Both the position numbers and the translations under genes were made by a program. DNA of 64,000 nt from Macrotis lagotis. Taxonomy: Eukaryota; Chordata; Mammalia; Peramelemorphia; Peramelidae. The stretch is from positions 284,863,078 to 284,927,077 of the forward strand of contig NC_133660.1 in NCBI RefSeq assembly GCF_037893015.1, written 5' to 3'. This document shows, in pieces, positions 42,186-42,790 of the stretch; within the stretch, counting starts at the first letter, position 1, and each line of letters starts with the position of its first letter. Under the pieces are notes generated by a model. That model searched no databases. It was given only the letters and a program-made list of their open reading frames with translations, and was not told the DNA's origin.

Positions 42186-42539
42186 GCCGATGGTCCTCGG
42201 GCGGCGGGGGTGGCCGGCGCCGGAGGCGCGGGGTCCCTTCGATTCCCCGGCGGCCCGGGGGCGGCGGGGGGCCGGGGTCCCCCCGGAGCCTGGAGCGGCG
42301 GCTGAAGGAATCGCTGCAGAGCTGGTTTCGGGCCGAGTTCCTCATGGACTACGACCCGCGGGGCAACCGGCTGGTGTGCATGGCCTGCGGCCGGGCGCTG
42401 CCCAGCCTCCACCTGGACGACATCCGGGCGCACGTCCTGGAGGCGCACCCCGGCTCCCTGGGGCTCTCGGGCCCCCAGCGCAGCGCCCTGCTGCAGGCCT
42501 GGGCCGCGCCGGCGCCCCACCCCACCCCGCCTCCTCCAG
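42186..42539 (+). CDS. ZFTA: ZFTA exon 3, zinc finger 2
   Basis: Seen: acceptor CCCCCTCCTTCCAG at 42172-42185, entry phase 1. A Gly/Arg-rich linker leads into [25 protein letters not shown] and the finger [25 protein letters not shown] (C-x2-C-x14-H-x4-H). It exits through CTCCTCCAG|GTGGGT in phase 1. This is the most divergent of the four fingers: it has Asp-Asp-Ile-Arg-Ala where the others have Ser-Thr-Ile-Lys-Arg. The donor itself is repeated ten times in the following intron (42536-42785). The exon end is therefore ambiguous: donors at 42617, 42695 and 42746 would add 26, 52 or 69 codons in frame. I chose the first donor because the downstream copies encode only Pro/Gly low-complexity sequence. 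Confidence 0.85.
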
Positions 42540-42790
42540 GTGGGTGCCCCCCCTCCTCCAGGTGGGCGCTCCACCCCCCTCTCCTCCAGGTGGGCGCCCC
42601 ACTGCCCCCTCCTCTAGGTGGGCGCCCCACTCCCCCCCTCCTCCAGGTGGGTGCCCCCCTCCTCCAGGTGGGCGCCCCACCCCCCTCTCCTCCAGGTGGG
42701 TGCCCTCCCCTCCAGGTGGGCGCTCCACCCCCCTCTCCTCCTCCAGGTGGGCGCCCCACTCCCCCCTCCTCCAGGTGGGCGCCCCGACCT
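42531..42790 (+). repeat. Tandem array of the ZFTA exon 3 splice-donor sequence in intron 3
   Basis: Ten copies of a 20-31 bp unit centred on CTCC(A/T)CCAGGTGGG(C/T)GCCCC-like sequence, starting at the end of exon 3. Exon-like ends (…CAG before GT) fall at 42539, 42561, 42589, 42617, 42646, 42667, 42695, 42715, 42746 and 42774. One copy reads TAG instead of CAG. Each unit also has a C/T tract ending in AG, so it resembles an acceptor as well as a donor. Confidence 0.93.

Follow-up and report, generated by a model that had tools for sequence, protein, structure and literature searches.

At the border of exon 3 and intron 3 of a ZFTA-like gene of Macrotis lagotis, the exon 3 donor is the first of ten [C/T]AGGTGGG donor cores that lie at 42537–42779 with a spacing of 20–31 bp. 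The array is a donor-anchored minisatellite, an arrangement already known from human ABCA7. We favour, with a probability of about 0.7, the reading that this GC-rich minisatellite was seeded by a duplication of the exon 3 donor and that copy 1 is the site mainly used in splicing. An earlier note on the same DNA had described a tenfold donor repeat with 20–31 bp spacing, which the octamer positions confirm; the array also supports its view that this donor was amplified in tandem. All local positions refer to the window, the whole stretch of 64 kb that was analysed, in which the array and its position at the exon end are directly observed.

The gene model was read from the sequence and comprises five exons (Table 1). 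All four introns are in phase 1, and the lengths of exons 2, 3 and 4 are divisible by three. Searches for the identity of the gene were made against Pfam and PDB chains, and Pfam places one Spin-doc zinc finger (PF18658) in each of exons 2–5, always with an E value of 6.2e-24 or lower. We take four Spin-doc zinc fingers on separate exons to be diagnostic of ZFTA; the gene identity proposed in the earlier note is supported on this ground. Exon 2 also contains a run of GAG triplets (41245–41299) encoding a glutamate-rich stretch. In human ependymoma the gene is known for C11orf95-RELA fusions (PMC7882569).

Table 1. Features of the ZFTA-like gene and its donor array, in window coordinates
Feature	Positions	Strand	Description
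Exon 1	37053-37179	+	From ATG; gene model read from sequence
Exon 2	40841-41338	+	Gene model read from sequence; one Spin-doc zinc finger
Exon 3	42186-42539	+	354 nt, phase 1 on both sides; acceptor, donor, open frame; PF18658 E 6.2e-24
Minisatellite array	42511-42785	+	Opens with the final 29 coding nt of exon 3
Copy 1	42537-42544	+	Exon 3 donor CAG/GTGGGT, last exon base 42539; offset 0
Copy 2	42559-42566	+	CAG/GTGGGC; offset 22, out of frame
Copy 3	42587-42594	+	CAG/GTGGGC; offset 50, out of frame
Copy 4	42615-42622	+	TAG/GTGGGC; offset 78, in frame; weakest donor
Copy 5	42644-42651	+	CAG/GTGGGT; offset 107, out of frame; equals copy 1 in strength
Copy 6	42665-42672	+	CAG/GTGGGC; offset 128, out of frame
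Copy 7	42693-42700	+	CAG/GTGGGT; offset 156, in frame; equals copy 1 in strength
Copy 8	42713-42720	+	CAG/GTGGGC; offset 176, out of frame
Copy 9	42744-42751	+	CAG/GTGGGC; offset 207, in frame
Copy 10	42772-42779	+	CAG/GTGGGC; offset 235, out of frame
Candidate branch point TGA	42910-42912	+	More likely of two TnA (other: 42834)
Exon 4	42934-43374	+	441 nt, frame kept if skipped; one Spin-doc zinc finger
Exon 5	43460-43837	+	To stop; gene model read from sequence; one Spin-doc zinc finger

Successive copies are separated by 22, 28, 28, 29, 21, 28, 20, 31 and 28 bp, and nine of the ten read CAGGTGGG while copy 4 reads TAGGTGGG. On the plus strand of the window all ten matches to [C/T]AGGTGGG fall inside the array; on both strands together the motif occurs 15 times compared with a shuffle mean of 6.0, a count that none of 100 shuffles reached. 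Tandem Repeats Finder reports the array as several rows that differ in period and together lie between 42511 and 42785. The units are of two types, a long one of 28–31 bp (GTGGGCGC[C/T]CCAC...) and a short one of 20–22 bp (GTGGGTGCCC...). Blocks of two or three units recur, and growth has therefore probably proceeded via multi-unit duplication. The last 29 bases of exon 3 resemble a first unit, with 13 nt identical to part of the array, a likeness equalled in score by 17 of 1000 shuffled tails and by 5 of 436 other local 31-mers; homology between the exon end and the array units is thus only suggestive. From column -6 to +5, counting the last exon base as 0, just one of 12 columns is variable, compared with 10 of 15 flanking columns. 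The nearly invariant core could be at most a hint of constraint, since the units are copies of one another and not independent. A second minisatellite with units of about 25 bp containing CCCCGTGACAGCA is present in intron 1 (37607–37872), away from splice sites.

Some care is needed with exact lengths in this region. At 43460–43600, within exon 5, the reading frame carried over from exon 4 does not agree with that of the zinc finger, and the conflict adjoins C runs of 9, 6 and 6; alternative AGs that would reconcile the two frames lie in G-rich or weak contexts. Either an assembly indel or the use of another acceptor accounts for the conflict, and its position beside C runs makes their exact lengths doubtful. 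The array itself has eight C runs of 5–7, so that statements on frame that hang on a single C need accurate long reads. That the unit number or the C-run lengths are assembly errors, which both sets of C runs would favour, nevertheless seems to us very unlikely: a genome search with the array gave a single 100% match, the locus itself, and the array as such is no artefact because its units differ by substitutions and fall into types.

Donors were scored with a donor-site matrix, using a cut-off of 6.0 for donor-like GTs. Intron 3 and its edge contain ten such GTs, compared with a mean of 0.69 and a maximum of 4 in 500 shuffles. Copies 1, 5 and 7 (CAGGTGGGT), the sole copies with a T at +6, score 9.55, six others reach 8.26 and copy 4 has 6.64; for comparison, exons 1, 2 and 4 have donors with scores of 10.83, 7.13 and 7.91, respectively. 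U1 pairing energies rank the ten donors as the matrix does, and copy 1 is among the three best by both measures. In windowed folding copy 1 is not favoured over the others and ranks among the least open. As copies 5 and 7 match its score and folding does not favour it, copy 1 does not stand out by sequence alone. For the 14 nt following the donor, copies 2, 3, 4, 6, 8 and 9 have folding energies of -4.2 to -6.7 kcal/mol, and copies 1, 5, 7 and 10 of -2.8 to -3.1 kcal/mol, a difference that at first seemed to favour copies 1, 5 and 7. The idea that hairpins mask the extra donors was rejected, as sliding-window folding gave it no support.

According to the earlier note, copies 1, 4, 7 and 9 keep the frame and would add 0, 26, 52 and 69 codons, and the offsets bear this out. 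The coding frame is open throughout the array, which is unremarkable in a region of about 80% G+C. With copies 3, 5, 6 or 8 in use, the frame is predicted to end 24 nt inside exon 4. This stop would lie 417 nt upstream of the last junction, and such transcripts would therefore be targets of decay; from copies 2 or 10 the frame is predicted to run to a stop in exon 5. One might imagine a working switch in which several copies are substantially used, giving either a graded Pro/Gly-rich linker or a decay-coupled control of ZFTA dose. The open frame, a donor core that varies little, and three equally strong donors accompanied by seven weaker ones, all well upstream of the likely branch point, are compatible with such a switch. 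We nevertheless consider it unlikely. In-frame copies are at chance level, with three of the nine extra donors here, and over the four arrays of this kind described below the extra donors in frame with the first one number 11 of 39, compared with 13 expected, so there is no sign of selection for frame-keeping isoforms. Moreover, copy 5, one of the three best donors, is out of frame, and in the ABCA7 repeat the use of repeat-unit donors is about 2% and constant with length (PMC5954066). The earlier note also suggested that the array might give rise to alternative isoforms, compete for U1 or vary in length; each of these is possible.

Every unit also consists of a C/T tract followed by CAG/GT, and the earlier note had credited each, besides a good donor core, with a C/T tract ending in AG, which would be the acceptor half. 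The tract is present as letters, but this part of the claim is weakened by the branch-point scan. No yTnAy occurs from 42401 to 42933, and the branch-point core TnA is absent from the array; from 42501 on its sole occurrences, at 42834 and 42910, come after the array. Of these two we prefer 42910 as the candidate branch point because of its distance to the acceptor at 42933, which itself lies beyond the array end near 42785. With no branch-point-like sequence in the array, its AGs should be poor acceptors. Units acting as dual-specific sites, that is as donor and acceptor, do have a precedent in the tandem repeats of UBC and VCX3A, where PMC10809524 describes an AGGT in each unit, sites that are both donor and acceptor, and whole units being spliced out. 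The ZFTA-like array shares the AGGT per unit, whereas its acceptor lies outside the array, its units have no upstream branch point that would make them acceptor-capable, and there is no intron inside the repeats, the units of 20–31 bp being far below intron size. Recursive splicing involves juxtaposed (Y)nNCAG/GTAAGT-like sites in long introns, as described in PMC5126111; here the donor part reads GTGGG[T/C] and intron 3, with its 394 nt, is not long. Dual-specific or recursive use of the units in the manner of UBC thus appears extremely improbable.

It may also be asked whether the splice-like letters are incidental and the array is an element acting at the DNA level, the gene body being rich in CpG; E-boxes or CTCF-like sites arranged in a row would be examples. 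In favour of this, the array has nine CAGGTG E-box cores, and most units contain a CpG; on the other hand, no unit comes within two mismatches of a CTCF-like consensus, and we give such an element very little credence. A row of CTCF-like sites was tried as a candidate and rejected, none of the 19 matches within two mismatches falling in the array. Letters resembling a PRDM9 motif had 3 of their 14 plus-strand matches in the window inside the array, and this reading was dropped because the motif is human.

Elsewhere in the window, three head-to-tail copies of a SINE-like unit of 166 bp were noticed by eye at 4654–5131, which is unusual for an interspersed repeat. A full-length match to U6 snRNA, gene or pseudogene, lies on the minus strand at 16648–16754 (99.8 bits with a gathering score of 44). 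At 20276–20761, also on the minus strand, an open frame matches the reverse transcriptase domain PF00078 (E 2.2e-21) and is probably a LINE fragment.

The closest known counterpart of the array is the VNTR in intron 18 of ABCA7. As described in PMC5954066, that array starts at the exon 18 donor, its first GT being the donor of the exon; later units carry further donors, and some mRNAs make use of one of them. The same source gives two frameshift isoforms at 14 and 2%, the latter taken as retention of one unit, and skipping of exon 19 that rises with length. The two arrays have in common short GC-rich units that start at the exon end, with donors in the later units. In the ZFTA-like gene the first unit likewise holds the donor of a coding exon, with the exon 3 frame predicted to join that of exon 4, and each of the ten short tandem units of 20–31 bp has its donor. 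They differ in that the ABCA7 repeat, with 25 bp units in about 12 to 427 copies, has proven length variation and a proven effect on splicing in that source, whereas the ZFTA-like array has ten units, belongs to another gene and lineage, and is known from the sequence of one assembly. More distant parallels exist. In human duplicated genes, minisatellites with units of 30 bp on average alter gene structure and splicing at exon-intron borders; according to PMC2812944, these repeats lie in recent segmental duplications and some have created introns, whereas the ZFTA-like array lengthens an existing one. The model of Rogers (PMC4974935) derives intron gain from tandem AGGT duplication, and tandem duplication of an AGGT-bearing stretch is what the two cases share, although here no new intron was made. 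A published report of the ZFTA donor array was not found in a literature that was partially covered, which says little.

Similar arrays were sought in the same assembly (3.66 Gb in 607 contigs). With the array as query, seven matches were obtained, one to the array and six, all weaker, spread over three further loci. Two of these loci were assessed by reading the letters: C5:263.54 Mb is a C-rich look-alike with no AGGT in the array part examined, and at C1:933.73 Mb the units carry CCTCCTCCAGGTGGCC and CAGGTGACC (GGTGGCC, GGTGACC) and lack GTGGG. A GTGGG donor is therefore not needed for such arrays to arise. The third locus, C1:844.11 Mb, is one of the 20 CAGGTGGG loci mentioned below. Four 31-bp units at C1:844.108 Mb (local 2023–2120) end in a pyrimidine tract and CAG and are a possible acceptor-anchored counterpart; no coding exon was recognised by reading the next 250 bases.

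In a second search, three motif copies at 8–32 bp spacing were required, with CAGGTGGG, CAGGTGAG and CAGGAGGG as motifs and CAGGTAAG left out. It gave 135 places for CAGGTGGG (8 for the reversed-pattern control), 398 for CAGGTGAG (control 2), and 283 for the non-donor core CAGGAGGG (reversed control 93); of the CAGGTGAG matches listed, all but 24 belong to one long array on C2. Although CAGGTGGG and CAGGTGAG looked enriched over their reversed patterns, the idea of donor motifs as favoured seeds of minisatellites was dropped, CAGGAGGG arrays outnumbering those of CAGGTGGG. Given that CAGGAGGG is commoner and that a look-alike array lacks AGGT, we claim no donor enrichment. At C2:334340302–334344520 we observed an array several kb long made of 20-bp units (CAGGTGAGGGGGATGGG[G/A]), at the start of which no coding exon was recognised.

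Thirty donor-motif arrays were examined, comprising ZFTA and, among the matches listed, 20 CAGGTGGG and nine CAGGTGAG loci. Exons were looked for with Pfam in ten upstream frames from nine loci and, again, in two exon frames, with PDB in three exon pieces, and by eye on translations for the rest. At least 4 of the 30 begin at a recognised exon donor: ZFTA, a β-spectrin gene, an RCE1-like gene and an ankyrin-repeat gene. The β-spectrin array (C1:902.263 Mb, local 1880–2600) has 18 donors at 28–30 bp spacing that are identical over nine bases. Its exon matches PDB 6m3q_F over residues 33–75 (E 7.9e-20; the Pfam match is below cut-off) and the next exon matches residues 77–136 of the same chain (E 3.5e-31), so that the first of 18 equal donors gives the conserved protein, with one split codon between the exons. 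In this case each unit resembles the exon end over 23 bases. At C3:282.163 Mb there are eight donors; the exon, which we take to be RCE1-like, has an upstream frame matching PF02517 (E 5.9e-6), while the exon itself had no Pfam or PDB match and the next-exon frame no Pfam match. The ankyrin-repeat array at C2:204.240 Mb has seven donors, with a Pfam Ank_4 match below cut-off (E 0.011) and a PDB ankyrin match of 2.2e-14 that is summed over weak repeats. Allowing two mismatches at most, homology towards the exon extends over 16–26 nt in spectrin, 10–17 in ZFTA, 6 in the RCE1-like gene and 5 in the ankyrin gene, and seeds therefore range from mostly exonic to wholly intronic.

Our preferred reading, a minisatellite seeded by the exon 3 donor with copy 1 as the main site, can be put as follows. 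The seed would have been a tandem duplication of a stretch reaching from the end of exon 3 into the start of intron 3; because it included the 5′ splice site, every unit would carry a donor. The array would then have grown in blocks of one to three units, either by slippage or by unequal exchange. We infer that splicing takes place mainly at copy 1, which would preserve the expected protein, the later donors being removed with the intron. In favour of this reading we count the array with its spacing and units, the recurrence of unit types in blocks, the rank of donor 1 among the three best, the chance-level frame of the extra donors, the absence of TnA from the array, the role of the first donor in β-spectrin, the C-rich arrays that lack a GTGGG donor, and the ABCA7 precedent. 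The equal scores of copies 5 and 7, the folding result, the low variation of the donor core and the merely suggestive homology to the exon end speak against it. A few per cent of the mRNAs might end at a later donor, most of them frameshifted. Longer alleles, should they exist, would by analogy with ABCA7 show more skipping of exon 4, in frame and with the loss of one zinc finger.

The choice that U1 snRNP makes between sites is studied with duplicated-donor constructs, of which closely spaced rows of near-identical donors are a natural version. With four such rows, one of which has 18 identical donors, RNA reads could show which of several equal donors wins and whether length matters. The most useful addition made here is the presence of at least three further donor-anchored arrays in the same genome. 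One may speculate, at long odds, that duplication of 5′ splice sites recurrently grows short GC-rich introns in this genome and leaves rows of 7–18 near-equal donors, that these rows set a length-dependent slippage of donor choice together with in-frame skipping of the neighbouring domain exon (the zinc finger in ZFTA), and that copy number thereby tunes protein make-up between individuals. If its length does vary, the array would be a candidate ABCA7-like modifier of ZFTA.
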